A stretch of DNA of 64,000 bases from the NCBI GenBank assembly GCA_949316235.1, contig OX438743.1, forward strand, positions 32,519,242 through 32,583,241. Direction: 5' to 3'. Source of the stretch: Oegoconia quadripuncta. Taxonomy: Eukaryota > Arthropoda > Insecta > Lepidoptera > Autostichidae. The position numbers and the translations under genes were made by a program. Below are positions 3,428 to 24,363 of the stretch, piece by piece (position 1 is the first letter of the stretch; every line of letters starts with the position of its first letter). The notes below the pieces were generated by a model. It worked only from the letters and a program-made list of their open reading frames with translations. It ran no database searches and had not been told where the DNA came from.

Positions 3428-3997
3428 GTGTTAAATTTAAGGCACACAATAGCTCCGCGCCGCATTTCCAAATAGCTCGCCACCTCAAATATGTTGCTCT
3501 GGATTTATGTGGAAAGTTAGATTGCAATTAGATTCTTCAGTGTGGAGTGTGCGTGGGAACTAGAAAGGTTTCACAAGTGTCATTAGTCGAAATGAATGTA
3601 GGTATGTGGTTACAATATGATACTGCATGAACAATGTAATGAGGTAATATTTGGGAGATGTAATGGCAATGTGGTTACTGTTAATAGCTTAAGCTAAATA
3701 AATGGGGTTTCCACCACTAATATTGCTTTTTACAATGAGCTGGTAGGAAGATTTGTCGAAGCCACAGGTAACTCAAAATGTCACTGTCCAGGGTCTAATT
3801 TAATGTCACTATCCAGGGCCCTAATTCCGCTAAAATTTTAGTCTGTGTCGATCTCAATACAATAACACGAGTTGCGTTTATGACGACTCACTTAATCCCA
3901 GTAGGATTGTCCTAAGCATATGTATTGGTTTTATAAATCCAAATCGTATATCATTTATTTCGATTATTTTTCTACATGTTTCTCGTTAAGTTAATAA
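3428..3997. other. Spacer, no gene seen
   Basis: A short internal duplication of AATGTCACT(A/G)TCCAGG occurs near 3776-3820. Nothing else that I can assign. Confidence 0.4.
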
Positions 3998-4175
3998 CCG
4001 CCTCCGTGGCTCAATGTAAACAACATTGGGTTTACGATTCGGAGGTCGCGGGTTCGATTCCTAGCGGGGTACATGTTTAAATACTCGGTTTGGTTGGTGG
4101 TAGGGAATTTTAAATGTCCGCCTGGCTAGCTACCACCATCTTATCTAAATCTGCCGCCAAGCAGCAATGTTAATA
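3998..4175 (+). repeat. SINE family A, left half of the copy split by the 20-kb transposon
   Basis: This is a tRNA-derived SINE. The head has a box-A-like GTGGCTCAATG and a box-B-like GGTTCGATTCC, followed by the family body TTGGTTGGTGGTAGGG, then CCTGGCTAGCTACCACC, then TCTGCCGCCAA. It stops abruptly at CAATGTTAATA. In intact family members, for example 38485-38830 read on the minus strand, the next bases are GCATTGTT. Here those bases reappear at 24213. The two halves therefore belong to one insertion that was later interrupted. Confidence 0.92.
4174..4175. other. Target-site duplication TA, left
   Basis: The TA is immediately outside the left CACTGGG end. The uninterrupted SINE has a single TA at this point (AATAGC), whereas here TA is found on both sides of the insertion. 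Confidence 0.85.
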
Positions 4176-4187
4176 CACTGGGAAAAA
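4176..4187 (+). repeat. Terminal inverted repeat, left
   Basis: Reads CACTGGGAAAAA inward. It is identical over 12 bp to the reverse complement of the right end, after which the two ends diverge. Confidence 0.88.
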
Positions 4188-4194
4188 AAGAGGC

Positions 4195-4640
4195 TCATTT
4201 ATCGGCTACGTACAACTGTGTAAACCCGGTACTGCAGTTGCAGCCGTGTAGACACGGTTATTATTGCCGTATCACGCTGAAATGGCTAGGATGCACACAC
4301 GGTTAAGTTTTGGTAGCAGATATGCACACGGTACTGCAGTAGCAACCGTGTAAACATGGTTAAAATTGCACACGTCTAGGATGCACACGGTACTGCAGTA
4401 GCAACCGTGTAAACATGGTTAAAATTGCACACGTCTAGGATGCACACGGTACTGCAGTAGCAACCGTGTAAACATGGTTAAAATTGCACACGTCTAGGAT
4501 GCACACGGTTCTGCAGTAGCAGCCGTGTAAATACGGCTAAAATTACACACGGTACAGCAGTAGTAGCTGTGTAAGTACGATTAGGATTACACACGGCTAG
4601 GATGCACACGGTACTGACACTGACTGTCATACACAGGTAG
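4195..4640. repeat. Left subterminal array, about 59-bp units with ACACGG cores
   Basis: Units beginning TGCACACGGTACTGCAGTAG recur at about 4323, 4382, 4441 and 4500, a 59-bp spacing. More diverged units lie on each side. Each unit carries both ACACGG and its complement CCGTGT, forming short dyads. In CACTA elements such subterminal motifs bind an element-encoded protein, so that role is inferred here. Confidence 0.85.
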
Positions 4641-4699
4641 CGATGCCGTGTGACACTGTCGCTCCAGTTGCGTTCATACGACTGCGTCAACCATCTATC

Positions 4700-5625
4700 T
4701 AAGACCCAACACAGATTGCGTTGCCGTGTAACCCGGTCGTCCCAACTGCATTCACACGACTACCTAGAATCATACACAGGTGGTGTTGCCGTGTGACACG
4801 GTCGTTTCAGCTGCGTTCACCCTACTATCCCAGCCATCTACATCGGCTCCTACGCAGGTGGCGTTACCATGTGACACTGTCGTTCCAGTTGCGTTCACAC
4901 GGCTTCCTCAGCCGTCTACCCTAGAATTCTACACAGGTAGTGTTGCCGTGTGACACGTCTTTTCAGCTGCGTTCACCCGACTACCTCAACCATCTACCTA
5001 GGATCCTATACAGGTGGCGTTGCCGTGTGACACGGTTATCCCAGTTGTGTTCATACGACTACCTCAGCTGTCTACATAGAATCCTAAACAGGTGGCGTTG
5101 CCATGTGACACGGTCGCCCCAACTGCATTCACACGGCTTCCTCAGCCGTCTACCCTAGAATTCTACACAGGTAGTGTTGCCGTGTGACACGTCTTTTCAG
5201 CTGCGTTCACCCGACTACCTCAACCATCTACCCAGGATCCTCCACAGGTCGCGTTGCCGTGTGACACGGTCATCCCAGTTGCGTTCACACGTTATCTCAG
5301 CCGTCTATCCTAGGATACTATACAGGTGGCGTTACCGTGTGACATGGTCTTTTCAGCTGCGTTCACCCGACTACCCCAGCCATCTACCCTAGTATCCTAC
5401 ACAGGTGGCGTTGCCGTGTGACACGGTCATCCCAGTTGCGTTCACACGACTACCTCAGCCGTCTACCCTAAGATCCTAGCCAGGTGGCGTTGCTGTGTGA
5501 CACGGTCATCCCATTTGTGTTCACACGACTGCCTCACCCGTCTACCTAGGACCCTACACAGCCAGCGTTGCAGTGTGATACGGTCACCCCAACTGCATTC
5601 ACACGACTACTTAGACACAGGTGAG
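4700..5625. repeat. Left subterminal minisatellite, about 78-bp units
   Basis: The motif CAGGTGGCGTTGCCGTGTGA recurs at about 4777, 4855, 4934, 5011, 5089, 5168, 5245, 5323, 5402, 5481 and 5559, with spacing 77-79 bp. Every third unit is most alike (4934 and 5168), so there is a 234-bp higher-order period. Most units contain the dyad CCGTGTGACACGG. The short open frames here that encode Leu-Arg-Ser-rich repeats are by-products of the repeat and not genes. Confidence 0.9.
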
Positions 5626-6180
5626 GTGGCAGTATGAAGAGCTTTAGCAATCGCATCACAATGCTTCACCAAGTTGCTTAGGGCCCCAAGAACGCCGAGG
5701 TGGCTCTATGATAAATCTGAGGCAACCGCAGCACATGGCTTCACCAGACTGCTAGGGTCCTAAGAAGGGCTAAGGAGAAAGTATGAAGAGCTGAGGCAAT
5801 TGCATCACAGTGCATCACCACTTGCTAGGGATCCCAAGAACGCTGAGGTGGCAGTATGAAGAGCTGAAGCAATCGCATCAAAGGATTTAAGCATGCTGCT
5901 AAATGTGAAGAACAAGTACCCCTACTTAAGTAGTGTCAGTATGAAGAGGTAAGACAATAGCATCACAGGGCAACAAGCTGCTAGAGATCACAGGAACGGC
6001 TGAGGTGGCACTAGGAAAAGCTGAGGCAAGAGCATCACAGGGCTTCACCAAGCTGCTAGAGGTCCCAGGAACGGCTGAGATGGCAGTATGAAACACTAAG
6101 GCAAGCGCATTACTGTACTTCACTAGGCCACAGATTACCAATAAGTTATGACTAGGCTGCTAAAACGGTTTCAAGACAGT
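5626..6180. repeat. Second left tandem array, about 75-bp units
   Basis: Units of the form GAGGTGGCAGTATGAAGAGC, then GAGGCAA, then CATCACA, then GCTTCACCAAGCTGCTAG, then a CCCA(A/G)GAA(C/G)G segment. About seven diverged copies occur. The sequence is unrelated to the neighbouring 78-bp array and lacks the ACACGG core. Confidence 0.82.
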
Positions 6181-6215
6181 TGTGGCGGCAGTAAGAAGAG
6201 ACACAGACTGTATAG

Positions 6216-6530
6216 TATCACCTGAAAACAATCTGCCTAGAGAGTAGTAAAGAAAAGCAAATCAATTTGTTATACAAAATTGTAAAGCATTTCTCATCAA
6301 AAATGAAAGTTGTCCACGAAAACTAGCACTTCTTTTATTTAATATCACCTGAAAGCATGTGAGCTTTACCGGTTCAAGATATTTACATAGGTACCTACAA
6401 TCTGCCTAGAGAGTAGAAAATAAAAGAAAAACAAATAAATTTTTCATACAAAATTGTAAATCAAATATCTACAAGCATTTTACAACAAAAATGAAAGTTG
6501 AAACCAGCACTTCTTTTATTGGCTACTTTT
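6216..6530. repeat. Direct duplication of about 180 bp
   Basis: Two diverged copies share TATCACCTGAAA, ACAATCTGCCTAGAGAGTAG, ATACAAAATTGTAAA, CAAAAATGAAAGTTG and CAGCACTTCTTTTATT. It lies between the tandem arrays and the transposase 3' flank. Confidence 0.75.
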
Positions 6531-6947
6531 TAGACAAAGTGTAGCTGCGGTATAAATAATGCGATTTATCAAGAAATAATAAATTTATTACAAAACATCA
6601 CTGACATTTTATTTTTATATTTAATAGTAAGTATTTGTAATTAACATTTGTAGTTCTGTTAAATAATAAAATCACTTATAATAATATGGTAGTCACATTA
6701 GCATTATTAAATTATTGTTACTTTTATTTATTTTATTTTATTTTATTTATTTACACATATCTAAGATGACTTACTTATAAAAGAATAAGCACTAGGACCT
6801 ATTTGTATTATTTTTTTCTTATTTTAGGTTTCTATCCTACTATCGATATGGTAAACCTATTTATTGCGTCCATTTTGATAAACAGAACTAGCAATTGTAA
6901 AATTTATTACGTAACATTACACACGTTGCATTTTTATAATGCTTATA
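6531..6947. other. Transposon interior, AT-rich, no gene seen
   Basis: Includes a TTTTATTTTA run near 6722-6748. A segment at about 6785-6850 (GCACTAGGAC, then TTCTTATTTTAGG, then TATCCTA) is repeated with changes at 7805-7870, so part of this flank has been duplicated on both sides of the MITE at 6948. Confidence 0.5.
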
Positions 6948-7432
6948 CAGGGCGTCCCAAGACTATGCGACATGAAGGGACAATACCTTAAATATTGTAG
7001 ATAGGATATTTTGCTGAAAGGAGACTTTATTTTATTTTTAAAAGTTAGTTATACTGCTTTTTAAGATTTTCTAATAATTATTTGCTTCGTCTGGGAATCG
7101 CACCGACTCAAATGTGAAAAAAGAACATCCCATATGATGCCAACGAAAAGAATGAACAAAAAATTCTAATTCCTCTGAAGTAACATAGTATCTAAAAAGA
7201 AAGGAATAACGTATAATTAATCTTTACACAAATTAAAAACATACTTGAAACTGCCGGCCGAAGCCATTTCCTTCCCCCAAAAATCCCAGACAGTGCAAAT
7301 TATTTTTAGAAAATCTTAGAATGCAGTATTACTAACTATTAAAAATAAAATAAAGTCTCCTTTCAGCAAAATATCCTATTTACAATATTTAAGGTACTTT
7401 CCCTACATGTCACATAGTCTTGGGACGCCCTG
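6948..7432. mobile_element. 485-bp inverted-repeat element (MITE, mariner/Tc1-like ends)
   Basis: The left end CAGGGCGTCCCAAGACTATG and the right end CATAGTCTTGGGACGCCCTG are inverted copies. The inverted match continues imperfectly for about 95 bp through a segment with AATATTGTAGATAGGATATT and CTGAAAGGAGACTTTATTTT. The interior is non-coding. CAGGG ends suggest the Tc1/mariner group. TA is present on the left, but the right flank reads AATA, so the duplication is not clean. It is nested within the 20-kb transposon, downstream of the transposase gene. Confidence 0.8.
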
Positions 7433-7559
7433 AATATTTGTAATTAAAATTGATAATTTTGTTAATAAAATACCTATCATTGTAGATACAAAGTCATGAT
7501 AGCATATCAGCGTTAAATACGCCTAATATACGGGCTACATGCATTGGTTATGCGCGTCA

Positions 7560-7710
7560 GTAAGGTCTCCATAGCTCAATGGGGCGGGCGGGGGTAAATA
7601 TCGCCAAGGTGTGAGTGACGCTCTTGGGTGTTGCGAGCTTTATAGGCTACGGCAGGCTGCTTACCACTAGGCAGCCCGTACGCTTGTTTTCCGACTATCA
7701 CATAAAAAAA
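7560..7710 (+). repeat. SINE or non-LTR 3'-end fragment
   Basis: A box-A-like CATAGCTCAATGG near 7570, then GGCAGGCTGCTTACCACTAGG and CAGCCCGTACGCTTGTTTTC, and an A-rich tail. This type of tail is widespread in Lepidoptera. The family assignment is from memory and the boundaries are approximate. Confidence 0.55.
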
Positions 7711-7921
7711 AATTGTAGACAAGAAAGTCATTATAGCACATGTGCTATAATGACGTTGAGCTAATGTTACATACGCCCAACATGGCGACTATCAAATAAC
7801 AGAGTATGCACTAGGACATACATTTGTATTTATTTCCTTATTTTAGGGATTTTTATCCTAGTATGGAAATTCCAACCCCACTGTCTCCTTTCTGATATTA
7901 AATACACGGATTGAGACTCCA

Positions 7922-7927
7922 TTTATT
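7922..7927 (-). terminator. Poly(A) signal for the transposase transcript
   Basis: AATAAA on the minus strand, 63 bases beyond the transposase stop codon. It is the first canonical signal after the transposase gene. None lies in the 72 bp between the two element genes, which suggests that they share this 3' end. Confidence 0.55.
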
Positions 7928-7990
7928 AAATACAGGAATAATAATAACAAGATCCAAGTTAATTCGAATTTGACTAAAAAAAAAACTATT

Positions 7991-10573
7991 CTAATCTATG
8001 GCATTGCGAATCGTCACGAATAAAGTATCATCGATAAGAGATGGAGTTAATGTGTTTGGGAAGGGAAATTGCAGGGTGTCTAAGGCAACATATTTAATGT
8101 CCCGAGTTCTCACTACTTTGTATGCATGAAAGTGACTATCGAAGTACAGTGTTTCAAAGAGGAAACCTTTAGCGTAAACCTTACCCAGAGAGCTATCATA
8201 ATAGATATTAGAAATTGACATTAATAAAGGAGCAAATAAATCCTCGGCCACTAACTGAAGAAGTAAAATATCGCCAACACGATATGTAACGTTATAAGCC
8301 GAAATGGTTACATAAGGAACTGAATAAATCGACGCATTGTAAGACAAGGACAGAATATTGATTAATGCATGCTTTTCTTCTAGTGACAAGGAAGTGAAGG
8401 AGCCAGGCACATTGACAGCAGCAACCACATTTGTAAGCAATAAATGGTTTAATTGCAATTGCAGTTTTTTTGCAGCACTTTTGCAAACATTTACTGTCCC
8501 CGCTCCTGCACGGACAGCAGCTTTACAAACTCTATGTTTAGACTCAAACCGCATACTGGAAACATGGCTAATGGGTCCTACTCTTAACATTAGGCGAGGG
8601 TAATGAATCAAATGATGAAATTTTGGCTTTAGATTAGACTCTGATAATTTCAAGTACAATCGATTGAAATCTCGTATGTAAGTAGCAAATACTTCCATTA
8701 ACTCTGGGTAAACTTGTTCAGTAACAACGATGTCCATCACTTTACGTAGTAAAAGGTATAATTCATAAAACTCATAATATTTTATTGACGATGGAACTTT
8801 TCTGTGACGACCCGTTCTCAATGTAATGTCTACTTCTTTTACCCGATGTCCAATCATCAAGCCAAAATATCTTACAAATCGGTAGCATTCTGCTGATGAC
8901 ATTTTGATTTGAATGGAGTTAAAGCCTACACATTTTAAGGTGGGAGGTTTGTTACCAGAATCAGGACCATAATCAAACTCTACTATTCGTGAATTCAGAT
9001 AACTTAATGTGAAAAGCCGTTTATCAATTAATCCTTCTATAACAACTTTCATGGTATATATGCAAACACCTTCCAACATGTCATGCATATAATCAACAGC
9101 TACACGCGAGAAAAGGTCAAAATGTTCTATATCCAACCAAACTGATCGCTCCCTAATACCAGTCTCCGAGACATTATTCCGTCCCACATCCTGAAAATAA
9201 GTCTCCATATTTCTCAACAAAGAGTAGTCTTCAACACATTGGGATGCAGCTATTTCTTTTGTGGCTTTACAAATTCTACAACAGTAGTTTGCGCTGAAAC
9301 TCTGCGTAAAACCCAAAATAGTGTGCAGACCGAGATTGTCCCCAATAATAAGACCAACGACAAACCTTACATTTCCTTTGAACCCTTCGACTTCGACATG
9401 AACGCCTTCTCTAGCGAGAAAATTTATTTCATCAATTACAGGTTTAAAAATTTTATTGCCAAATTTGACACGATCGTCAGAGTGAAACAGATAAAACAAA
9501 AAAATGTACTTCAACTGAGAAGCCAAACGGGGAGGCAAAGATGGGAGAGATATATACATCCCACCTAGTTTGTGAATTCCTGCATGAGATCCGAGAGGAT
9601 TTCCTGTTTCGAAATCATCAAAATATAGGTGATAAGGGTACACTTTACTGCCAGTATTTAAGGAGAGCTGAGACTGCGTTTCTATCCAAACAGGAGACTG
9701 AGTAAAGTGCTGAATACAAGGTGACTCGTGGCAAGTTTGGACATAATCATCCATTTCCGCCATCAATGCAGGAGTTGACAGTAGCCGTTGAAGAACTCTA
9801 CGGATAGGAATGAATTGTCCAACAACTGGAACATCGCGAGGTGGAAGTTGACGCCCCACTACCTCTTCTCGAACCCCTAAAAATATACTTTGCGGAGGTA
9901 TGTATGAACCTAAGCTTGCGAAATAATTCTCCCGCTTATGAGTTGTTTCAAAAGGTTCTAATGCGTCTCCTAATGTTTTACGTAACACTTCTGTATAAGA
10001 CGTGATATGCTCACAGGCTGCTTCGCCTATGGACGCAGATAGTTCGTTACCTACTAACTCAAAGGCTACGTCAACGAGATCTTTATTGAAACAGCGAAAA
10101 GCCTCTACAATAGATTGGACGGTTTTGAAGGTAATATTAGTGTTAGTGTGAAAAGAACTGATTAACAAGCCTAACTGTTGCTGCAAAAACGTTGATGCAG
10201 ATTGTGGTAATATAAGTGGTTTTAGAACTGGTTGCACCAGTTGTTCAGAGGTTTCACAAATTAGAGAAGTTTTCTCGGGAGTTTTTAATATGGCCCTACG
10301 CATCATTTTGCTAGGACCAGGTAAAGTTATACTTTTGTCAGGAGTGGATAGAGGGGAAGGAATTGATTTACATGGAGAAACAACATGTAATGGAGCGTGA
10401 CGATAAGAAACATGGCGCTTCCAGGTATAAATCTCAGAAAACCATCGTGAACACATTCCACATCTGTAACCTCCCCATCCAACATCACTGTACTTCGAAC
10501 AACCCATTGTTACATGAGAAAAAAGCGATGATAGTTCACGGAAACGTTTCTTACAGTAGTAACAAATGAGCAT
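7991..10573 (-). CDS. CACTA/EnSpm-like transposase with N-terminal C2H2 zinc fingers
   Basis: A single open exon of 860 codons that would catalyse cut-and-paste of the element in the nucleus. Residues 4-25 form a finger-like CX2C...H...C and residues 36-59 a canonical CX2C-X12-H-X4-H finger, probably for DNA binding. The core has YFDDFETGNPLGSHAG (317-332), GLIIGDNLGLHTILGF (407-422), a CCRICK knuckle (431-436), VDYMHDMLEG (493-502), FHHLIHYPRL (652-661) and MRFESKHR (674-681). By analogy with plant TNP2-type CACTA transposases, I propose D319 or D320, D494 and E677 as the catalytic triad. That is inference. An acceptor-like TGTCCTTTTAG ends 5 nt before the ATG, so an upstream exon may splice here. 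The SAM-domain gene stops 72 bp upstream on the same strand. A plain uncharacterised C2H2 protein is the alternative annotation. Confidence 0.88.
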   Translation of the reverse strand: MLICYYCKKRFRELSSLFSHVTMGCSKYSDVGWGGYRCGMCSRWFSEIYTWKRHVSYRHAPLHVVSPCKSIPSPLSTPDKSITLPGPSKMMRRAILKTPEKTSLICETSEQLVQPVLKPLILPQSASTFLQQQLGLLISSFHTNTNITFKTVQSIVEAFRCFNKDLVDVAFELVGNELSASIGEAACEHITSYTEVLRKTLGDALEPFETTHKRENYFASLGSYIPPQSIFLGVREEVVGRQLPPRDVPVVGQFIPIRRVLQRLLSTPALMAEMDDYVQTCHESPCIQHFTQSPVWIETQSQLSLNTGSKVYPYHLYFDDFETGNPLGSHAGIHKLGGMYISLPSLPPRLASQLKYIFLFYLFHSDDRVKFGNKIFKPVIDEINFLAREGVHVEVEGFKGNVRFVVGLIIGDNLGLHTILGFTQSFSANYCCRICKATKEIAASQCVEDYSLLRNMETYFQDVGRNNVSETGIRERSVWLDIEHFDLFSRVAVDYMHDMLEGVCIYTMKVVIEGLIDKRLFTLSYLNSRIVEFDYGPDSGNKPPTLKCVGFNSIQIKMSSAECYRFVRYFGLMIGHRVKEVDITLRTGRHRKVPSSIKYYEFYELYLLLRKVMDIVVTEQVYPELMEVFATYIRDFNRLYLKLSESNLKPKFHHLIHYPRLMLRVGPISHVSSMRFESKHRVCKAAVRAGAGTVNVCKSAAKKLQLQLNHLLLTNVVAAVNVPGSFTSLSLEEKHALINILSLSYNASIYSVPYVTISAYNVTYRVGDILLLQLVAEDLFAPLLMSISNIYYDSSLGKVYAKGFLFETLYFDSHFHAYKVVRTRDIKYVALDTLQFPFPNTLTPSLIDDTLFVTIRNAID

Positions 10574-10645
10574 CTTTTCTAAAAGGACAGATTCTGGGCA
10601 GAAATAGTTCTCTCCTATATACGCATTTAGGCTATCTTGAATATA
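10574..10645 (-). promoter_or_regulatory. Short intergenic segment with splice acceptor before the transposase
   Basis: The gap between the two element genes is only 72 bp. It holds no AATAAA and no obvious promoter. It ends with TGTCCTTTTAG/AAAAGATG (AG at 10580-10579). An exon that starts at 10578 would be in phase with upstream exons ending in phase 1. This supports expression of the transposase by splicing from an upstream promoter. Confidence 0.55.
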
Positions 10646-13600
10646 TCAGATGTCTAACATGGATGGTGACTCAGGTGCACTAATGATCGTGTCTAATTCT
10701 TGTGATGAGGATATTACTCTTTCGTGAGAGCAAGAATTTCCCGTCTCTTGAGAGGAACTATTCCTATCTATCTCATTCACAAAACGGTTCACATCAATTA
10801 TATACTTATCGACTTTAACATCCTTTATACCATAGCAAATGAACTGAAGAACTTGCCAGATATGCTCACATTCGGGAGGGTATTTCAAGTTAAAAACATA
10901 AAAACATTTAAAACATAGGTCTACGGCTTCAATAACATTATTACAGTAAAACCACACATTATCAACAACAGAGAATGCACAGGAGACATTTGTGATATCC
11001 TCACCTACAACAATAATAAGTGGCTGAACTCCATTTGTTTTAGAAACTTCCTGCCGAAGTTCCTGTAAATAAGATTCTCCCTCGCTGCGTGTTTTGGCCA
11101 AAAATATGAAGCGGGAGGCTGCGTCGAATCGAGAGGCTTTAGTACGAAGACCCGTCTTACCTCCAACAACCGCAAACGGCAATAGAAAAAGCGTCGCGAT
11201 TACCTTCTGCAACTCGTTCTCTAAAAAGAAAGAGATTTTATTAATATTTTTAAATAGTCTCAACTTTTACACTCTACTCTTTCCCGATGCTAGTTTTAGG
11301 TATATTTGCTTGCTTTATTACCTTTAGGCAGATCATGAATTTTTTGTTGTTGAGCCCTGGAAGTCTTAGATAATGATCGCAGTTTTGATGTAGCTCTCAG
11401 TTCAATAAAGTTGGCATTTTTGCGAAGTCCATTGTAAAGCGATGATGGACTAACTTGTGGATAAAGACTTAAGAAATCTATTCTTATCTGAAAAGTAAAT
11501 AAATATAATGAAGAAACTAGATACGTCGAATGTTTCAATAAAAAAAAAACTTGCAAACACTTTACCAGGTGTGGCCCAATGTTAGGTACACGAAGCACAG
11601 CAAATCTTTCCAAGTATTGTGCAATTGATGGAACAGATAACAAGTAACGTTTTCGAAGTAGCCATGTCGCATTCCAAGCGGTTTCCAATATGGATGACAA
11701 TTGCAGTTCCTGATATTGTGATATAGTAGTAATATCGTCGTTATTCTTTAACTCTTCTGTAGAACAAATTCGCAAATTAGGTAATTGCAATATAACAAAA
11801 AAATCTGTGTAATATGTTTAAGAAAACTACAAATCAGCTCTAATACTCGGGCTAACCCAACATGACGTGTAATATCCAAATTAAGGCAATAATTATAATC
11901 CCATAGTTACTAGTTATCGCAATGTAGTCGCGACATTGGGATGAGCCAACATGTTACTACTCGTCTCTACATTGCGGTGCATTTTCTACCTTCTACAAGG
12001 ATGTGATCGAAGTCTTCGAGATCTTCATCCGATGGCAATTGGGGTCCCCTTTTGCGCCGAGGTTGCACTAGACTTCCGTCACTTGGATCCTCCTCAATAC
12101 TAGAAGAGGCTGTGCCAATGATCCTCTTCTTTACTAGGCCTTTGCTCTCACGCCAGACTGCCTGCCTCTTGCCGTATCTTTACAAAAAAATATTGACTTA
12201 CTATACCTCTCAAAACATTTTAAAATAATTAGTTGTTCCGTAAATTACACGATTGTAAAGTATAAATACTTTTATTATACGCCCTACGAGAACGCGATTG
12301 GCCTTGATCTCACCTGATGGTAAGTGACGATAAGGTGAAAGCGCGATTCATCCGGAATTCTCAACCACTGAGCAACTGGCTATTTCATCTCTAACTGCCA
12401 GAGCATAGCAACGCTACTAACATTATTGTTATGGCGGCAGACTTAGATAAGACGTTATAGCTAGCCAGGCCGACTTAGAAAAAGCCCTACCACCAACCAA
12501 ACCGAGTACCAATTAGTACCCCGCTGGAAATCGAACCCGCGACCTCAGGGTCTCGATCGGTGATCTAAACCACTAGACCACACAGGCAGTTAAAGTTAGC
12601 CCATATCCAGCCACTGCTAGCCATATGCTTCTAGATAAATATAATTTTAGCTGTAAATTTATAGGGTTAAATGAACTTGCTGCGTTTCATTATTAATATA
12701 AAAAAACAATAGTACCAACCTGTCATATAGTTTTCCATGAGGTCGTGCAGAAGCGCTTACCGGTGCTTTGGCACCTGGTGATAATTCACTTGTATCTTTT
12801 TTTATGGCAGGAGTGATGCTAAACCATATAGCCTCTGGTTCATTTGGGAACAAATTATGAATATAACTTGCCCACTGCCAGAAGATGGGATATGCAAGTT
12901 TTGGTTTTTGATCATCAATGTCCTTAAGGAGATAGTCAAGAATGATGTTGCACAGGTCACTTTGTTCACTCCTTTTTAATTCCCTCTGCTGTCCAGACCT
13001 AAGAATGTGTTTGCCAACAAGAGATTTCCCAAGCAAGTTTTTTAAAGGATTACAGTGGCCTGTTGACGAGCTTGGGGTAGGCTGAGTCTGTGAAGGCTGC
13101 TCAACGGTCGAAAGGCTAAAATATTTTTTACAGAATTTACATAGGACCAAATTAAAAAAATGTACCATGAATGGTGTCGCATTTGTGGCATAATAATAAT
13201 CATGTGATTTTCCTATACTTCATAAAAATGACCTGACCTATGAAATTATTATAAAATCGATTATTATAAAACGATTTAGCCACTCGATTTCTAGCCATAT
13301 AAAAATCATTTAAATTAGCCGGGATAACGACATCCACTGACGAGATGGACAGGTGAGCTAGTAAGGTTCGCTGGGAATCGCTGGACGCAGGAGGCTTCCA
13401 CCCAGTCTAGACGGAGGAATATGGGGGAGGCCTATGTTCAGTAGTGGACGTCCTATGACTGAAAAAATAACCAGAACAATGCCACAAACTGTCCCACAAA
13501 CAACTCTATAATAATTACCTCAGTGCTTCCTTTCTATGCCCTTCAACCTCACTTTCGGACGAGTACTCTCTGACAAGATCAAGTTGGTTGTAGGGAGTAT

Positions 13601-16600
13601 TATTTTCATTTACCAACTGTTTTGGCAATTGTTGAACCTTGAAATTTTAAAAGAAACATAGTTATTATCTTGAACATACAGAAAGAACTTATATATAACA
13701 TAACATAGTTATCTGATTGAGGTGAAAGACATATTTATGTACGTTCTGTGACAATGCATATTATGGTACTATCGAACTGATCTGATGATGGAGCCAGAAA
13801 ATTGCCACTGGAACTCCTCGATGGACATTATATTACTTGTCATTGTACTAGAACAATATGTGATAATCATGCATGATAGAGCATTATAAGGTTTTTAAGT
13901 CTTTTTATTGTAGAACTTATTAACGCTATCTTAGATTCGCCATTTTAGAAATGTAAATATTCAACCTTAATTTCGGTATTATGATCACAAAAATCCCCTG
14001 GATATCGATTGTAAGCCGGATCGTGCAAATTCATTATTTACCGCAATCTTAAATTGTCCGTTTCTAAAATTTTCATATTTTGAGCCGGATCGCGGGCAAG
14101 TTTCATTTTGTAGTCCAGTAAAGATACGCAATTTTTGTGCTGCAACTTCATGTAACTTTAAAGTTCCTGATTTTTTGTAGAAGGATAAGAAAGTAGAAGT
14201 ATGAAATAAAAATGTTTTCTAACAATTCTGTAGCTTGCTTTAGGTATAGTATAAGTATAAATTCATTTAATTTTATATATATTAAATTTATACAATGGCT
14301 ACTTTATATTTTCTAAAAATTGTTTATTGAGTCATTTGCCCTTCTACATTTTTGAAAATCTAATATATGTCAAAAAAAATATAGCATCATTTAGGAAAAA
14401 TAGTGATAAACATGATGTCAATACAAGAAATAAAGATAAACTTGTAGGTCACATAAGTCGCCTCCACAAAGTCAGTAATTCATTCAAAGGGTTATGTATA
14501 CGCTTTTTCAATAAAGTTCCTGTTGATATACAAAATCTTCCTTTCAATAAATTTAAAGATACTATAAAACAGAAACTTATTAAGAAAGCATATTATAAAA
14601 TATCAGATTATTTAGATGATAAACAATCATGGACATAACCAGCCCGTTCGCATAACCAGGCTATTTCACAATTAATAATGAAATATTATAATATAAAATA
14701 ATAATTTTGTAATATAAAAACCTTTTTTTAAAAGAGCGACCTCTCGAGTTTCTTGCTTGTTCTTCTCAGGGGAAAATTGCCTTTTTAACAAGCAGTAGCT
14801 TTAAAAATGTAAAATCTGACTATTTTAAGTGTACCCTGTGTACCTACAAAATAAAGCATTTTTTGATTTTGATTTTGATTTTGCCCTCGGTGAAATTTTT
14901 CATAAATGTAAAGAAGTTATTGATCGATTTTTTTTGAAAATAGAAGGGTTCTAAGTATATTTTCCGACGCAATGAAATTCACAGTGGTAATTTTAATCAT
15001 ATAGTCTATGTTTTATTATTAAACATTTATATTACATCTAAAGCAAGGTACCGATTTGTTAGGTTTTTTTTTATTCTATCACTGACAGGTACTCTATCCA
15101 TGTGCAAAAAATCACGGCCTTTAAGATTATAGAAAGTTAAAAGTTGTATCCTTACTGGACTATTTGGCCGCCATATTGGATTCACCATCTCCGCACCCCA
15201 AATAACCGCCAGATATAAAATTCATGTTATTTTATATTTTTCTTATTCAAATTTTTGTTACCTTGGATTACAATATTGCAATTTTCTAGGTATCTCAAAT
15301 TTTTTTTTAATAAAATATAGCCTGTTACTCGCTGATAATGTAGCTTTCTATAGGTCAAAAATTTTTTTTAATCAGTTAAAACAGTTTATGCATCACAAAC
15401 AACGAATACAAAAAATCAAAGCTCTTTATAATATTAGTTCAGATACTTGGATTAAGTCTACCAAATTAATAAGAGAAATGTAATAAAAATCTTTTACAGA
15501 TTCAGATAGAAAAGGTCAGATTCAAATAGAAGAAGTCAAAGATAGATAAGGTCGTCAATACTTTCTACCTTTACATTTAAGGCAACATACAAGTACGATT
15601 TTACCTACAAGGACTATCTTTACTAAACTATTTTAACTATAAGTACTACCATTACGCCCAACACTACTTTTACTACAAACACTACAAGCCGACCTTAGAC
15701 ATAACAAAGTCCCTCTCTCGTATAGGTCAGACTAGATATAGGTATTCCATAGTATTTCTACAGGTCATGCATATTTTACATCACGGAAAGTATCATAATA
15801 TAGTGTAAAACAGGACTTGAGACCTCTCGGCATTCCTCTGACCATTTATTCCACTTCATACGATACATGGTCTGATCGGGCATAGTTGGAAGACCCAATA
15901 TTGCAAAATTATCAGGAGTTGGTTCAAGGGATTGTAACAAGTCTATAGATGTGTAACCTTTATCTGAAAGATAAATCCGAGGGATATTGATTAGAAAAAA
16001 GGAAGAAAACCTATACCAAACACCAGCTGACATTTTAATTTTATTAGGAAAGAAAGAATTTATTTGGATTTCTGTTATAAAAGTATTTTCTACAAAAGTT
16101 TACAATGTAAAATCCAAAAACCACCACGACGCTGGTATTATGTAGAACCGAAAGGCAGAGTGGTGCCACTGTACTACTTAATGTTAACACAACTCTCCAT
16201 GCAATCTACACATAAAACATCAATTATCATTAGGCATATAGTATGTTTCATCAGCCACAGATAATTTGAGTTTGTTAAAGACTTCAACATTTTTTTTATT
16301 ATAAATCTTTTTATCTATCCACATTAATATTTATTATAAATGAGAAAGTAACTATTTATGTCTGTCAGTCTGTGTATTACCTTTTCATGACTAAACCGGA
16401 ACTAAGGGTGCGAGGAATATATCCATTCCATCTATCCATTTTTGAGTTGCAGAACTTGACCTATTTCATAATATTAATTCATTTTTTTTTGTATACCAGT
16501 TCAGCAAGGAAACATAATTTTATATAATTTTAAATAGAACTGTGTTCCGGTCGGTTCTCGGGCAGCGAGTTGCTCTCGAGATTATTTTCGCCTTTAGTAT

Positions 16601-19524
16601 TTATTATAAAAGAAATCTAGCAAATATAATTATTTCAATTCAGACAAATTTCAATTTTTTAAGTTACAAATTTTATTGTGCGTTTGAATTTTTGTTTTTT
16701 GGATTTTTAGGGAGTTCTATATTATTGAATTTCTAAATGTTCGAATTTTCGAATTCAAAGACTAGCTAAGATTTTTCAAAATCGGTGGACAAGCAACAAA
16801 CTTATGGCAAGTCCCAACTGAAGTGTCCATGGCTAGACAATGATGCAAGTCACTCTACTTCAAATCGTTTCCAACATTTACCAAAGCCCATCCAAGAAAA
16901 AGTTATCAAAATTTATACACAAACAAAAATATTATAGTAAGCCCAAACGGAGAAGTCCACGGCTGGACAATGGCGCAAGTCACCCCACTTCAAATCGTTT
17001 CCTACATTACGTAAGCCTATGACAGAAAAAAAATATCAAAAATTGGTACACAAACAAAAAAGTTATAGTATGCCCAAACTGAGAAGTCCACAGCTGGACA
17101 ATGGTGCAAATTATCCCATTTCGAAACTCCTTTCATCCATTACTAAAGGCCATCCAAAATAAAATTATCGAAATCGATGCAAAGTTATAGCAAATTTTTT
17201 TTGATAAGCTCTCCTTACATTCAACTGAGGGATACAACACAAATATTTCAGTTCACATTATGCATGTTGGGTACTAATAGATGGTCTTTAAAAATTAAAT
17301 TGCTATTCCTAAATGAGTTTTTAAATTAAGCCAATAATTATTGAGATATCTATGGGCTCCCAAATTTCTAAAAATTGTGTCCCCGGCCCCTCTTATTTCA
17401 TAATTTCATGGTTAAGTTCATCTTAACTATGGAACCCTTCACTGGGTTTGGTCCATCTATGTAACGAAGAGGCAAACAAGCACACAATACACCTGACGTT
17501 AAGTGTCTATTTTACCCATAACAACAGTTCAATTCAATTCATTTATTGCATAACTATCAGCATAAATTACAGTGATCTTTAAATTTACAGTCCAAGAGTG
17601 AGGGCTCACTGATGTGTTGCCTGTAATTTCACTGGCTGCCTCAGCCTCCAAACCGGAGCACAACAATGCAAGCATTGATGCTTGGTAGCAGGAAAAGTAA
17701 GGTGGTGGTACCACCACGACGAGTAAATACCCAGATGAGCTTGCACAAAACTATGTACTATGAGCAGTTAGGTATAAAATAATTAATTCAAATATTATGA
17801 TCTCAATAATTAAATAATTTAAACTGAGTGAAGAGTGATCAATAATAAAGCTGTAATTCTTTATTAAACGACTTCAAAAAAGGAGGAGGTTCTGTATTCG
17901 GGGCGTATTTTTTTTAGTACCTATATGTTATAAGTAGCAACATTTATTTTTTATTGGGATCGAGCAAGGTTGATTAGTATCACTTGTTTTTGTTTTAAGT
18001 TAATGGAACCGTATTTATTTGAGTTGTTTTGAGTCAAAGATTGTTTTATATACCTTTTCTGACCTTTACTTGGTTGTAATTTTATTGTTCCTTTTCTTGA
18101 AAAAAGCCAGTAATTCTAGTTCATACCGTTGCTACCTATTTTCAAGAAGTAGAAGAAATGTTTAAAAAAAATTATAAATTGAATTGGCTGTGATATTTGC
18201 TGTTGAGGAGATCCCTTATTCGTAGATAATCTTGGTTGTATCATCAGTTAGTTCGAGATAAAAAGTATGTTAAGTCCATCTCCAGGTCCTAGGCTACCCT
18301 CTTTGTCAAATATCTTACAATAGGTTGTGGCTTAATTGTGAAAACTAACAAACAATCACAATGACAGACAGACATGAAACACTTTCATTTGATAATTAGA
18401 ATATATACTAAATAATAATATGAAAATAAACTGTGAATTTTGTCAGCCATTGGACGGCATAAAATAAATAAATATCCTTAAACATGCACACAGTGCCATT
18501 TAGTTCCACAGTGAGCAACTATAGAATTGTGTTGTGGATACCAGTTATACTACATAAATACATTTATTTTTGTAAATAAATACTTATTATAAATGAAAAC
18601 ATCCATGACTCGGGTACACATGTCCGTATTCATCACACAAACATATGCCCCTAGCGGGATTCGAACCCGCAACCTTTTGGTATAGTGGTCAGAGTTTCTA
18701 ACCACTACACCAAACAAGTCACCATAAATATTCCACCAAAAGATGTTTTATTTTATATCTCCTCTCCTTATTTTAAATTGATTAATAAACATTAAAGGCA
18801 ACACTGCAACCCATTATTCAATAGAACTATGACAGCAAGCAAGCTAAATGATTTGTCTGTAACACTGATAAAAATCTGTAAACGATTGACTAATTACTAA
18901 TAATAATATGTCATAAAATGCTAAGTCTCAAAAACTGTTTATATATATATATAATTATATATTTGGCATCCAAGTGCATTATTGTAAAGGAAATAAATAT
19001 ATTTAAGTATCTTATTTTTTAAATTGGAAAAATATTGTTTGGAAATGACAAGGTGCGGGTTCCATCACCTGCTAGAACAAGGGATCTGCATTGCCCATTC
19101 AGAAATTATTTTTAGTAGGTAAGCGACACTTAGTGCATTATAGAAAGGAAGTTAAGCTGGCAGACAAATAACATTCTGAGTGGTGCATGGGCATGAGTGG
19201 TGCGAACATGCATAATAAAGTTGACTTGCTACACTACCCTTGCTCACATTCCTCACTCATATTGTTGCACACATCTCTCACTTCTTTTGTATCTACAAAT
19301 ACCTCGCTACCCCTTACCCCTTTCCCACCAAAGCTGCGACGAGCAAGGCTAAGAAAATGAAATGATCCTGTTAGTGGATATAATAGACATTGTATCCATC
19401 CTAGAGCTACACGGCTATTGTAAAGTGAAAGTTTGTAAGGGAATACTAGTCACTTACCAATAATGATATCCACTGCCGGTTGGCTTAATTTCCATGACTG
19501 TAGTAGTGCTTTAACTTCTTCCAT
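10646..19524 (-). CDS. SAM-domain accessory protein of the transposon, 8 coding exons
   Basis: Joined from minus-strand exons 19524-19458, 15963-15824, 13637-13519, 13115-12720, 12177-11990, 11756-11566, 11487-11322 and 11220-10646. These total 1842 nt and encode 613 residues. Every coding intron has GT/AG ends and all phases agree. Residues 1-65 resemble a SAM fold (MEEVKALLQSWKLSQPAVDI, then SIDLLQSLEPTPDNFAILGL), a protein-interaction domain. The middle has GKSLVGKHILR, NLFPNEP and GKLYDRYGKRQ. The C-terminal exon has ATLFLLPFAV, RFDAASRFIFLAKT and VFNLKYPPECEHIWQVLQF. The layout resembles SAMD3-like uncharacterised proteins, a comparison made from memory. The start is preceded by AAA and followed by G. 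It may bind the subterminal arrays or assist the transposase, by analogy with plant TnpA. That role is inferred. Exon 13637-13519 and the 15824 donor (GAG/GTCTCA) are the weakest parts. Confidence 0.8.
12280..12592 (-). repeat. SINE family A, diverged copy within an intron
   Basis: Read on the minus strand it has the tRNA-like head with GTGGTCTAGTGGTTTAGATC and GGTTCGATTTCC, then TTGGTTGGTGGTAGGG, GGCCTGGCTAGC and TCTGCCGCCAT. It is more diverged than the other copies. It lies in the intron 12178-12719 of the SAM-protein gene. Confidence 0.8.
13320..13470 (+). repeat. Non-LTR retrotransposon 3' end
   Basis: The sequence GAGGCCTATGTTCAGTAGTG, then GACGTCCTATGACTGA, is the widespread lepidopteran LINE 3' end and matches the copy at 61505-61698. 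It is strongly 5'-truncated and lies in the intron 13116-13518. Confidence 0.75.
14320..14881 (+). pseudogene. Non-LTR retrotransposon 3' end with reverse-transcriptase ORF tail
   Basis: The open frame to 14638 encodes DVNTRNKDKLVGHISRLHKV, KGLCIRFFNKVP and the end IKQKLIKKAYYKISDYL. This matches the usual C-terminus of the reverse-transcriptase polyprotein in insect LINEs. After the stop comes a 3' UTR ending in a (GATTTT)n tail at about 14854-14881. The 5' part is missing, so this is a dead, truncated copy. It lies in the large intron 13638-15823 of the SAM-protein gene. Family assignment beyond non-LTR is not attempted. Confidence 0.78.
16765..17200. repeat. Three tandem copies of about 130 bp
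   Basis: The segment with GAAGTCCA, GCTGGACAATGG, CACTTCAAATCGTTTCC and ACACAAACAAAAA recurs with anchors at about 16835, 16965 and 17096. It lies in the 3.5-kb first coding intron of the SAM-protein gene and has no coding capacity. Confidence 0.8.
17201..18515. other. Intron sequence with small repeat fragment
   Basis: Part of intron 15964-19457. At 17870-17905 is CGACTTCAAAAAAGGAGGAG, a motif widespread in lepidopteran repeats and also present three times at 43020-43600. No exon is apparent. Confidence 0.5.
18516..18722 (-). repeat. SINE family B copy within an intron
   Basis: On the minus strand it starts TTGTTTGGTGTAGTGGTTAG (box A-like) with TTGCGGGTTCGAATCCCGC (box B-like), then CATATGTTTGTGTGATGAAT and the family body. 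It is not a functional tRNA gene, because the sequence between the boxes does not fold as a tRNA and the SINE body follows. Confidence 0.85.
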
Positions 19525-19534
19525 TTTACATGAC

Positions 19535-19655
19535 CTGAAAGAGTTTATATAAAGAAATGTAAAGAAAGAATAAAGAAATGGATGGATATATGACCTCACT
19601 TGAAGCCCTAAGTGTCTATTGAAATTGTGGAAGTAGTCGGTACCAAGGTACTCAC
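19535..19655 (-). other. Probable 5'-UTR intron of the SAM-protein gene
   Basis: A strong donor (GATG/GTGAGT, exon end 19656) and acceptor (TTTCAG/GTCATG, exon start 19534) lie just upstream of the proposed start codon. The 5' end of the leader exon is not visible. If used, the leader contains a very short upstream ORF (ATG GTC ATG TAA) before the main start. Confidence 0.5.
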
Positions 19656-20071
19656 CATCAGCGTATCGCTCACAACACCGAAATCACTACAAACACAATT
19701 TTTTATCAAACACAAAGATATTTAAAGTGTTGAGATTTAAAATAACTTTTATCGGAGTGTATGTCCTAAAAATTTGAATAACTGTAACGTACAATGACAA
19801 CGGAACGACGACACGACCAACAGAGTCGTTCGCGGTAAAAAGCAGTGTTGCCAACTCTATACTTCCAAATAGCGCTACGAAGAAATAAAAAGGCAAAAGA
19901 GCTTTATAATCAGAAGAAAGTAAATAAAATAGTGCATATTTTATATAATATATCTACACAATTTAACATTATTATTACCTAGAAATCGTCACCAAGACGT
20001 TATTTTCATTAGATAATTACAAACTGTTGTTCCTCGTTCCGATACAAGGATTATTTCGGAAATTAGTTATT

Positions 20072-20113
20072 TTTGAAACTTTTTACTAACTAGGATTAGT
20101 AAAAAGTTTCAAA
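20072..20113. repeat. Inverted repeat, 18-bp perfect arms
   Basis: TTTGAAACTTTTTACTAA at 20072-20089 pairs with 20096-20113 around a 6-base loop. Confidence 0.85.
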
Positions 20114-20279
20114 TATAAACAAAGACGAAATTGAAGAACTGCTGTTCACATAATCTCCGGACTTTGCGATCATAGCTCTGTCCATTCCTAACTCAAATGC
20201 CGATTGTGAGAGGGAAAAATGCTCAAAAAGAAATAATGTGTAATCCGAAATGTTTTATTAACGCCAACTGCGAATGGAG

Positions 20280-20337
20280 TTCTATTAGCAGATTGGCTGT
20301 TTGAACAATTTTTCAAACAGCCAATCTGCCAATAGAA
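20280..20337. repeat. Inverted repeat, 26-bp arms
   Basis: Left arm 20280-20305 starts TTCTATTAGCAGATTGGCTG. The right arm at 20312-20337 is its reverse complement with one mismatch, and the loop is 6 bases. It may be a small foldback or a regulatory hairpin upstream of the element genes. Confidence 0.85.
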
Positions 20338-21544
20338 TGATGACGCTGATGCAAAAATTTCAAAGCTTCTCAAAACATGTTGTCAAAAATGACTGCCACA
20401 CTTTACTTGCCAAAACTTTCCAAAAGCGGAGGTCAGAGAATCTTTGCTGAGGATGTGTTTTCCTTCAAATGATGCTATCAAAATATAATTCGAAAAATAA
20501 CACACCTTTGAAGGAAAAGAAAGACATTATTAAAGCTTAATTACTGACATATTGTGTTTTTATTATTATATTTATAAATTTTCTTGTCCTTGTACGAATA
20601 AACAGTTAAAAATACGAAGTGATAAACCGATGTAAATGTCAAAACAAGAAATTCCGCTTTTTTTTGTCGAAAATCCGCGTTTTTCTGGCTACACTGTTTT
20701 GTAATAAGTTTCACAGCCCAGCCGTCTTCCTACACAACACGGCTAAAGGACTCTTTGGCTAAAGGTAAGTAGGTAGCGTAGACAGTAGGTTTATCTGTCT
20801 ACGGTAGGTAGGTATCCTTTATTGCTGACGACTGCTGATATCCTAGAGCAATGTTTCCATAAAAGTATCTGTCAAAGTTCCGTAAAAAATCAGTAGGCAT
20901 TGTTATTTTGAAATAATATTTCGTGGATTCAGGTACAGTCAACAGTCAAAGTTTTAGGTACAGTCAAGGTCCAAGATATGTATACACCACAAAGTGCCAC
21001 AAAAGTCACCTTCAAAATTACTACAGATATGGCAACACGTAAAAGTTCAAGAAGTTCAGAAGCCTAATGCAGCGTAATAGAGTCCAAACTCCAAAGACCA
21101 ATGTTCACACGTTTCTTATGACGTTTTACAACACACTTGCGACGAAAAATAAATAAGTCTTTCGGAGAACGACTTTGCTTTTTGACTATTTTTCCATTGC
21201 AGCAAATTTCAGTATGCTGGCATGTATTCTTCTTTAGCTTTAGATGGCAACAATATGTGCCTCACCTATTTGACGCGGCGTGTCAGTATTTTAAAATATC
21301 TTTATTACATGAACTCGATTTTTTTAAAATAATTGAGTACAAAACATAGTTAATATTAATTAATCTATCTGTGAAAAAGAAGGCAAAGATTTTTTCGCGA
21401 GTGGTAGTTCTGGCTCCTAGCTGGCTGGCCAGCGAAAGCGCGACTTGAAAAAGCGCGGTAAATTAAAAAAATGTTCTTCTTTTGCTTACTACAGCAGGAG
21501 AAAAAAGTTTTGATATTTGAATATTTTTTTTTTAACGACAATCA

Positions 21545-23850
21545 ATTTGTTATTTCATCAAGCTATATAACACACGACTCGCTAACCGTGTAGTAAACAG
21601 CATCCGTAATATTAAATTCGGATAATGTAGCCGGTTTTTCTTTAACACAAGACTTGTGGAACGAGCGTGATACAGTTTAGGTAGTCGGGTTTGTACCATT
21701 TCACATAACATAACTAACAAGGCCAATATTTGTATAATACACTGTTCGTCAAGTCGTATAAACACACGACTCGTGAGCTGTGTAGTGAACAGAGCCGGCG
21801 GTCGTGTTTGTACCATTTCACATAACATGGCCAACAAGGCCAGGATTTGTATAATACACTGTTCGTCAAGTCGTATAACATACGACTTGCGAGCCGTGTA
21901 GTAAATTGCTCCGGCAGTGGTGTTTGTGACGATGTTTTCAATTCGGATAAGGTAGCCGGTTTTTATATAATACAAGACTTGTGTAACCGTACGTGATATG
22001 GCTCAGTTAGTCGTGTTTGTGATGTTTCACATGACATGGCTTACAAGGCCAGGTTTTGTATAATACACGGTTCGTCAAGTCGTATAAACACACGACTCGC
22101 GAGCTGTGTAGTAAACAGCGCCGGCAGTCGTGTTTGTGATGATGTTTTAACTTCAGATAATGTAGCCAGTTTTTCTTTAACACACGACTTGTTAAACCGT
22201 GCGTGATACTGCTTTGATAGTCGTGTTTGTACCATTTCACATAACATGGCTTACAAGGCCAGGATTTGTATAATACACGGTTCGTCAAGTCGTATAAACA
22301 CACGACTCGCGAGCTGTGTAGTATAAACAGCGCCGGCAGTCGTGTTTGTGATGATGTTTTAACTTCAGATAATGAAGCCAGTTTTTCTTTAACACACGAC
22401 TTGTTAAACCGTGCGTGATACTGCTTTGATAGTCGTGTTTGTACCATTTCACATAACATGGCTTACAAGGCCAGGATTTGTATAATACACGGTTCGTCAA
22501 GTCGTATAAACACACGACTCGCGAGCTGTGTAGTAAACAGCGCCGGCAGTCGTGTTTGTGATGATGATTTAACTTCAGATAATGTAGCCAGTTTTTCTTT
22601 AACACACGACTTGTTAAACCGTGCGTGATACTGCTTTGATAGTCGTGTTTGTACCATTTCACATAACATGGCTTACAAGGCCAGGATTTGTATAATACAC
22701 GGTTCGTCAAGTCGTATAAACACACGACTCGCGAGCTGTGTAGTAAACAGCGCCGGCAGTCGTGTTTGTACCATTTCACATAACATGGCTAACAAGGTCA
22801 GGATTTGTATAATACACTGTTCGTCAAGTCGTATAACATACGACTTGCGAGCCGTGTAGTAAATTGCTCCGGCAGTGGTGTTTGTGACGATGTTTTCAAT
22901 TCGGATAAGGTAGCCGGTTTTTATTTAATACAAGACTTGTGTAACCGTACGTGATACGGCTCAGTTAGTCGTGTTTGTGACTTTTCACATGACATGGCTT
23001 ACAAGGCCAGGATTTGTATATTACACGGTTCGTCAAGTCGTATAAACACACGACTCGCGAGCTGTGTAGTAAACAGCGCCGGCAGTCGTGTTTGTGATGA
23101 TGTTTTAACTTCAGATAATGTAGCCGGTTTTTCTTTAACACACGACTTGTTAAACCGTGCGTGATACTGCTCTGGTAGTCGTGTTTGTACCATTTCACAT
23201 AACATGGCTTACAAGGCCAGGATTTGTATAATACACGGTTCGTCAAGTCGTATAAACACACGACTCGCGAGCTGTGTAGTAAACAGCGCCGGCAGTCGTG
23301 TTTGTACCATTTCACACAACACGGCTAACAAGGTCAGGATTTGTATAATACACTGTTCGTCAAGTCGTATAACATACGACTTGCGAGCCGTGTAGTACAT
23401 TGCTCCGGCAGTGGTGTTTGTGACGATGTTTTCAATTCGGATAAGGTAGCCGGTTTTTATTTAATACAAGACTTGTGTAACCGTACGTGATACGGCTCAG
23501 TTAGTCGTGTTTGTGACTTTTCACATGACATGGCTTACAAGGCCAGGATTTGTATAATACACGGTTCGTCAAGTCGTATAAACACACGACTCGCGAGCTG
23601 TGTAGTAAACAGCGCCGGCAGTCGTGCTTGTACCATTTCACATAACATGGCTTACAAGGCCAGGATTTGTATAATACACGGTTCGTCAAGTCGTATAAAC
23701 AACCCTAGTGAACCGTGTAGTTAACAGCTCCGCAGCCATGTTTGTGACGGTGATTTAAACATGGCCAGAGTAGGGGATTTTTCTTTGATACACGGCTCAT
23801 CAAACCAAAAACGGTAGCCGTGTAATAGTGACATAAGCAGTCAGCTCCTT
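21545..23850. repeat. Right subterminal array, 210/118-bp units in a 536-bp higher-order repeat
   Basis: The motif TTACAAGGCCAGGATTTGTA recurs (as AACAAGGTCAGG in some units) at about 22041, 22251, 22463, 22673, 22791, 22999, 23209, 23327, 23535 and 23652. Spacings are about 210 or 118 bp. The pairs 22673/23209, 22791/23327 and 22999/23535 are each 536 bp apart, so a three-unit block has been duplicated. Units contain CACACGACTCGCGAG, CACGGTTCGTCAAG and CCGTG cores. Long repetitive open frames on both strands here are repeat artefacts. Confidence 0.92.
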
Positions 23851-24198
23851 TACTTGGCTACGTTTTACGTTTAAACAACACAGCGACAATTTTGACGCGG
23901 TTGGTGTAACCTCCTAAGACACGTTGTCTAGCCATGTATGTTCTCATACACGGTCATATGTAGCTGTGTCAAAAATGTAACCGTTTAAAAATACACGGCA
24001 ATACTTTTGACACGGCTAAAGTATCTGCTTTACTTGTCCCTCTAGCAGGATCTAACGACTGGAGTAGCCACTTATATGACTAACGTGGATATGTAAAATC
24101 GATAGCCGTGTACACGGTTTTTAACACGGCTACCAAACCCGACTACGCCAGCCGACAGCACGGCACCGTGCAGTATAGCCGTGTAGAAAAGCCGTGTA
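23851..24198. repeat. Outer right subterminal region with scattered ACACGG motifs
   Basis: No regular period, but many ACACGG, CACGGC and CCGTGT cores occur in both orientations, for example TACACGGTTTTTAACACGGC near 24110. They resemble those of the left end. Probably protein-binding sites for mobilisation, by analogy with plant CACTA subterminal repeats. Confidence 0.7.
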
Positions 24199-24210
24199 TT
24201 TTTCCCAGTG
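24199..24210 (-). repeat. Terminal inverted repeat, right
   Basis: TTTTTCCCAGTG, the exact reverse complement of the first 12 bases of the element at 4176-4187. Confidence 0.88.
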
Positions 24211-24363
24211 TAGCATTGTTGTGTTCCGGTTGTCAGAGATAAGATACCCAGTCCCCCAAATGTTTTGGGGTTTCCGGATCAGTACGCTTTGACCTTCGAC
24301 CTCATCTTCACTTAACATCAAGTGTGATTGCGGTCAAGTACGAACACGTCGTGCAAAAAAAAA
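24211..24363 (+). repeat. SINE family A, right half of the copy split by the 20-kb transposon
   Basis: Begins TAGCATTGTTGTGTTCCGGT and continues TTGTCAGAGATAAGATACCC, CTTCGACCTCATCTTC and ACTTAACATCA to a poly(A) tail at about 24354-24363. It continues the left half at 3998-4175 exactly after one TA is removed, in the order found in the intact copies. The first TA (24211-24212) is the right target-site duplication. Confidence 0.92.

Follow-up and report, generated by a model that had tools for sequence, protein, structure and literature searches.

A 20-kb CACTA-like transposon with a transposase gene and a SAM-domain gene in the lepidopteran Oegoconia quadripuncta

The element, its borders and its copies

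The locus described here lies on contig OX438743.1 of the Oegoconia quadripuncta assembly GCA_949316235.1 (Lepidoptera; Autostichidae), in a stretch of 64,000 nucleotides that we refer to as the window (C2:32519242-32583241). Within it, a CACTA-like block of 20,035 bp interrupts a short interspersed element (SINE) of the host and carries two genes on its minus strand, one for a transposase of 860 residues and one of eight exons for a SAM-domain protein of 613 residues, between long arrays of subterminal repeats. Its outer features are as follows (positions are those of the window):

4176..24210, no strand: transposon of 20,035 bp, judged complete from its terminal inverted repeats, the SINE empty site and three further genomic copies
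4176..4187, plus strand: left terminal inverted repeat, CACTGGGAAAAA
24199..24210, minus strand: right terminal inverted repeat
4174..4175: target-site duplication TA, left copy
24211..24212: target-site duplication TA, right copy
3995..4175, plus strand: left part of the interrupted tRNA-like host SINE
24211..24363, plus strand: right part of the same SINE

The 12-bp ends form a perfect inverted pair with 0 mismatches, a pairing that is not decisive alone, as 9 of 100 shuffles gave at least two matches when one mismatch was allowed. The borders are settled because the block splits a SINE, which we take to resemble lepidopteran repeats, whose uninterrupted copies in the window span the site. 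The flanks 3995-4175 and 24211-24363 match neighbouring segments of a single unbroken SINE (38830-38499, minus strand), with TA common to both. Six SINE copies were aligned to the joined flanks; five of them (near 38.6, 53.0, 26.2, 61.4 and 12.4 kb) run across the insertion site without a gap, and the sixth (near 33.0 kb) has small indels there. The insertion is therefore exact and the target-site duplication is TA, the junctions reading GTTAATA before CACTGGG...CCCAGTG and TAGCATT after it. A chance origin of the ends was rejected on the SINE empty site. The matching ends and TA duplication noted in a first-pass annotation of the letters were thus borne out, and the 20-kb block does not run on into unrelated host sequence, its borders splitting the SINE.

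That annotation had also proposed a search for further copies with the terminal sequence. We compared the left 301 bp of the element with its own genome (622.6 Mb, 45 contigs) and found four occurrences at 100% identity, which sets the copy number at four or more. The 12 rows of this search comprised the four full matches, four internal matches (68%) of the same copies, and four rows at 82-86%, all from a single C10 array around 21.67 Mb. The copies outside the window are:

C12:5843410-5863444, minus strand: second copy, 20,035 bp
C10:8143021-8163055, plus strand: third copy, 20,035 bp
C10:9434321-9454355, minus strand: fourth copy, 20,035 bp with its mismatched final base included

The four copies differ from one another at just five positions (10988, 21423, 23317, 23322 and 24210 of the window). 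The sole coding variant, at 10988, is silent, and both the transposase and the SAM protein are identical in every copy, in agreement with the recent competence suggested earlier from the intact frames. Any two copies differ by 1 to 4 bases, which corresponds to roughly 8,000 to 33,000 generations if insects mutate at about 3e-9 per site per generation.

Could a single old insertion have been multiplied by segmental duplication, by gene conversion or by duplication in the assembly, with no recent mobility? We consider this highly improbable. The flanks of the four copies are unlike, their common sequence breaking off precisely at the CAC/GTG ends; three of the four (the window, C12 and first C10 copies) are bordered by TA at either end; and when the 320-bp flanks of two copies were joined, they matched their own places only, among the window and the fetched loci. 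What speaks for duplication is that two of the three other copies lie close to 200-N gaps, the C12 copy with C12:5842707-5842906 at 503 bp and the second C10 copy with C10:9434018-9434217 at 103 bp beyond their right ends, and that a SINE nested in an intron of the SAM gene leaves the noncoding part not pristine. It may be that this assembly breaks next to the identical 20-kb copies. The nested SINE, between exons 4 and 5, is common to all four copies, and therefore part of the element's length was gained before the recent amplification; in the window it occupies about 12295-12546, and it is the same type of SINE as the target.

We conclude that the block is, with high probability, a complete CMC/'CMCT' (CACTA-like) DDE cut-and-paste DNA transposon that was mobile in its lineage very recently. 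The first-pass annotation had likewise called it complete and CACTA-like, a description that stands with the caveat of a 2-bp TA duplication and CACTGGG ends, where plant EnSpm elements have 3 bp and CACTA.

Genes and subterminal arrays

The two open genes on one strand that had been noted from the letters were both recovered, and the features inside the element are:

7991..10573, minus strand: transposase, 860 residues, with two C2H2 fingers, a predicted RAG1-like DDE core and a predicted C-terminal BAH-like domain
10574..10585, minus strand: candidate 3' splice site CTTTTAG/AAAAG, 5 nt before the transposase ATG
19458..19524, minus strand: SAM gene exon 1
15824..15963, minus strand: SAM gene exon 2
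13519..13637, minus strand: SAM gene exon 3
12720..13115, minus strand: SAM gene exon 4
11990..12177, minus strand: SAM gene exon 5
11566..11756, minus strand: SAM gene exon 6
11322..11487, minus strand: SAM gene exon 7
10646..11220, minus strand: SAM gene exon 8 with the stop codon
4176..5610: left subterminal array with 31 ACACGG/CCGTGT motifs
5622..6110: second left array of 74-75-bp units, without the ACACGG/CCGTGT motif
21551..24210: right subterminal array with 24 ACACGG/CCGTGT motifs

In the transposase, the CMC motif (D319 D412 C432xxC435 H653xxxH657 E677) is present in all 41 rows of the alignment, and the structure model predicts a RAG1/Transib-like fold for the core. The Transposase_21 (tnp2) profile did not match the window protein; it matched 8 of 41 family members at E<=1, with scores of 20.1 and 14.9 bits among the matches listed against a cut-off of 28.6, and the Plavaka profile matched 4 of the 41 at the same threshold. 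A sequence search of PDB with the single transposase gave three matches, all at E 0.25 or worse, and with the transposase alignment the 60 rows listed of 160 all lay in the N-terminal finger region. A tree built from the window protein with 48 relatives placed it beside two metagenome proteins (100/100), with an Apolygus group joining next (98/95). No relatives were found in IMG/VR (by protein or alignment), in GTDB genomes (by alignment) or in phage records, which is expected for an animal element and is no sign of rarity.

The SAM gene joins its eight exons across GT/AG introns, and the family profile backs almost the full length of the product. Both this profile and the structure model place a predicted SAM domain at the start of the protein family, and with support from profile and fold the SAM assignment is not an over-reading. 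The pairing of a zinc-finger transposase with a separate spliced SAM-domain gene, as first described, is thereby upheld. Outside the SAM domain the model is mostly of low confidence and no DNA-binding fold was identified in it. A plus-strand frame of 125 codons at 14261-14635, in an intron of the gene, is retrotransposon-like by impression and has no Pfam match.

Among the 120 listed transposase relatives that we surveyed for fusions, P0067 clearly carries a SAM part; a search with its N-terminal part gave 12 relatives, none weaker than E 8.9e-17. P0077 was matched by the SAM-family profile (E 8.7e-6), and a SAM-only profile seeded with the window protein, P0067 and P0069 matched P0077, P0074 (3.2e-5) and, at the borderline, P0075 (0.0037); for P0069 its score is no test, the protein being in the seed. 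P0069, from Apolygus lucorum, has 79 N-terminal residues that resemble the window SAM part (BLAST E 0.067 among the 120, 2e-4 alone) and no Pfam match, and P0026, with a near-identical transposase, begins with zinc fingers instead. That the SAM gene precedes the transposase on the same strand has good support in a butterfly and is probable, though not proven, in a plant bug.

The long structured arrays reported at both ends were confirmed by their tandem periods and by an excess of the ACACGG/CCGTGT motif over shuffled sequence (100 shuffles). The left array is built of 59-bp (3.9 copies) and 78-bp (10.8 copies) periods, next to which stand the 74-75-bp units, and the right one has periods of 117, 210 and 326 bp spanning 21683-23759. 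In the left 1,435 bp we counted 31 motifs (shuffle mean 1.62, maximum 6) and in the right 2,660 bp 24 (mean 2.69, maximum 7), of which 9 and 8 lie within the outermost 300 bp of the left and right ends. The 15,350 internal bases contain 3 (mean 2.93) and the 39,790 bases on the element's right side 14 (mean 10.75), and none was found in the 4,175 bases on its left. Tandem copies of the motif are not independent counts, but the units of the two arrays are unlike and have this motif in common. The C10 array near 21.67 Mb (about 5189-5683 of the fetched piece) has 16 such motifs and is 82-86% like the left array; neither CACTGGG nor CCCAGTG was found within the 20 kb fetched around it, and from its sequence it appears to be a relic of a related element.

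Other repeats were seen in the window. Inside the element, downstream of the transposase, a 167-nt inverted repeat (87% complementary, 187 nt apart) at 6930-7450 is perhaps a miniature inverted-repeat transposable element or a nested element. Outside it, 34779-35306 and 47355-47976 form an inverted repeat about 12 kb apart (a 378-column match at 92.6%, the outer part at 73.5%), and the interval between its arms contains, at 43598-44257 (minus strand), STPR repeats and a fragment of a Mutator-like transposase (PF20700, E 4.4e-29), adjoined by three 241-bp tandem copies at 96% (42880-43603). Judged by sequence, this pair and fragment may possibly be a second large DNA transposon, a Mutator-like element.

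A possible division of labour

The transposase would act as a DDE cut-and-paste enzyme at CAC-type ends and insert at TA. By analogy with TnpA of En/Spm, the SAM protein would bind or polymerise over the ACACGG arrays and pair the two ends, with the array DNA contacted either by the SAM protein or by the zinc fingers of the transposase, and the predicted BAH-like domain may tether the complex to nucleosomes. A split of labour in the style of TnpD and TnpA is, on this analogy, our best reading.

A different allocation is a serious contender, if not the one we would back: the transposase fingers alone would read the ACACGG arrays, and the SAM protein would be an oligomerising regulator or an anti-silencing protein. 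C2H2 fingers are common DNA readers and the only type of DNA-reader domain found in the element, and the SAM protein, with its mostly low-confidence model beyond the SAM domain, offers no identified DNA-binding fold. Against this stand the intact SAM gene in four of four copies, the recurrence of the SAM family fused to transposase relatives, and the precedent of Spm/En, whose subterminal repeats are recognised by the accessory TNPA, a protein needed alongside TNPD (PMC2613891). As for expression, one upstream transcription unit may be alternatively spliced into both products; such splicing is reported for Spm and SmTRC1 (PMC1636069). This idea arises because the candidate acceptor lies so close to the transposase start. 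Exons 1, 5 and 7 of the SAM gene are in frame with it and exons 2, 3, 4 and 6 are out of frame, which is only a hint because a third of all junctions would be in frame by chance alone.

More broadly, though this is less likely than not, the element may belong to an insect-wide, so far undescribed two-component lineage, in which a RAG1-like transposase with its own chromatin-reading BAH domain would work with a polymerising SAM partner on long subterminal arrays, as a very recently active CACTA-side counterpart of a RAG1-plus-accessory-protein transposon.

Several results weigh against our interpretation. For the window transposase, Pfam yields no transposase domain and the zinc-finger hits fall under the cut-off, and the BAH-like domain is predicted from fold alone, sequence searches of that segment having given no BAH. 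The window SAM protein has no Pfam match either, found no homologue at E 1e-3 when used alone, and matched none of the 120 listed transposase relatives by phmmer; Foldseek with the SAM-family model gave no PDB match at E<=0.001, the best (E 0.41) being a SAM chain. The SAM-family profile missed the Apolygus fusion P0069. The SINE empty site gives 2 bp, TA, and not the 3-bp duplication of plant EnSpm, and the second C10 copy has TT on its left, TA on its right and A for its last G, an odd junction that is doubtful because a 200-N gap is only 103 bp away.

An intact, very young autonomous CMC-like animal element would allow direct tests of end recognition, of the need for a partner and of chromatin targeting, and its four near-identical 20-kb copies mean that large DNA elements were changing the genome of this species very recently.

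Comparison with known systems

Members of CMC/CMCT have D, D and E residues with C(2)C and H(3-4)H between the second D and E, mostly 5'-CA..TG-3' ends, and duplications of 2-5 bp (PMC12730594). The element agrees in its ends (CACTGGG..CCCAGTG) and in its TA duplication, found in three of four copies. Our CMC/CACTA-like label comes from ends, motifs and arrays, as the tree took in family members only. Plavaka ends are TGT..ACA or CATCA..TGATG and KDZ (Zisupton) duplications 8 bp (PMC12730594); membership in Plavaka was rejected on the ends and in KDZ on the 2-bp duplication.

Plant-type EnSpm/CACTA elements share with ours the subterminal repeats at both ends, whereas Transposase_21 above its curated cut-off was not found here. 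The soybean En/Spm element Tgmt* (20.5 kb) is alike in its CAC..GTG ends, its size of about 20 kb, its structured, unequal subterminal repeats at both ends, and a transposase with a second product; it differs in having a 3-bp duplication and CACTA ends, where ours has TA and CACTGGG, and tnp2/TNP1 domains in place of C2H2 fingers, a predicted RAG1-like core, a predicted BAH-like domain and a SAM partner (PMC2613891).

A complete insect copy with a zinc-finger transposase and a separate spliced SAM-domain gene had been put forward as unusual. Insect CACTA-related elements as such are not new, having been in print since 2006, with 2-bp duplications and CCC ends, from Aedes (9.2 kb) and Tribolium (about 5.2 kb) (PMC1636069). 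These TRC elements resemble ours in an animal, including insect, CACTA-related transposase and in the 2-bp duplication, and SmTRC1 also in several spliced products and tandem repeats; they are shorter and have CCC at their ends where ours has CACTGGG, and the available text mentions no SAM protein (PMC1636069). Spongebob/EnSpm-4N1_HM, known from Hydra and, as short copies, from Bombyx and further insects, is likewise a CACTA-superfamily element of insects with a 2-bp duplication, and is unlike ours in its CCC ends, its 5.8 kb in Hydra and a transposase with stops or frameshifts (PMC4298943). The fungal EnSpm-like ESTA, compared by description only, shares the TA duplication, the CMCT motifs and RAG1 similarity (by HHpred), and differs in its fungal host and its TET/JBP gene (PMC12730594).

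A literature search that omitted most subscription papers and Repbase returned no SAM partner of a DNA transposon, no CACTA insect transposon with subterminal repeats and, in the text available, no BAH-bearing transposase. In our element CAC..GTG ends go together with a TA duplication, to which are added the SAM partner and the predicted BAH-like domain.

Among recombinases, RAG1, which acts on antibody genes, and Transib resemble our element in the predicted fold of the catalytic core, and CAC-type ends occur in RAG1/Transib too. It is nonetheless unlikely that the element is a RAG1-type transposon beside Transib/RAG, outside CMC, with a convergent likeness to CACTA. Its TA duplication is 2 bp against the 5 bp of Transib, family members show weak Transposase_21 and Plavaka matches, and subterminal arrays with a second gene are CACTA traits. 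RAG1 may moreover be the nearest solved relative by default, because we know of no CMC structure in PDB. The CACTA-like element further differs from RAG1/RAG2 in its SAM partner and in carrying a reader-like domain, predicted to be BAH-like, in cis, where RAG2 carries a PHD finger. With a predicted RAG1-like core, a SAM partner that at least one relative has fused to its transposase, and a TA target, it could serve as a model for how CACTA-like and RAG-like recombinases diverged.

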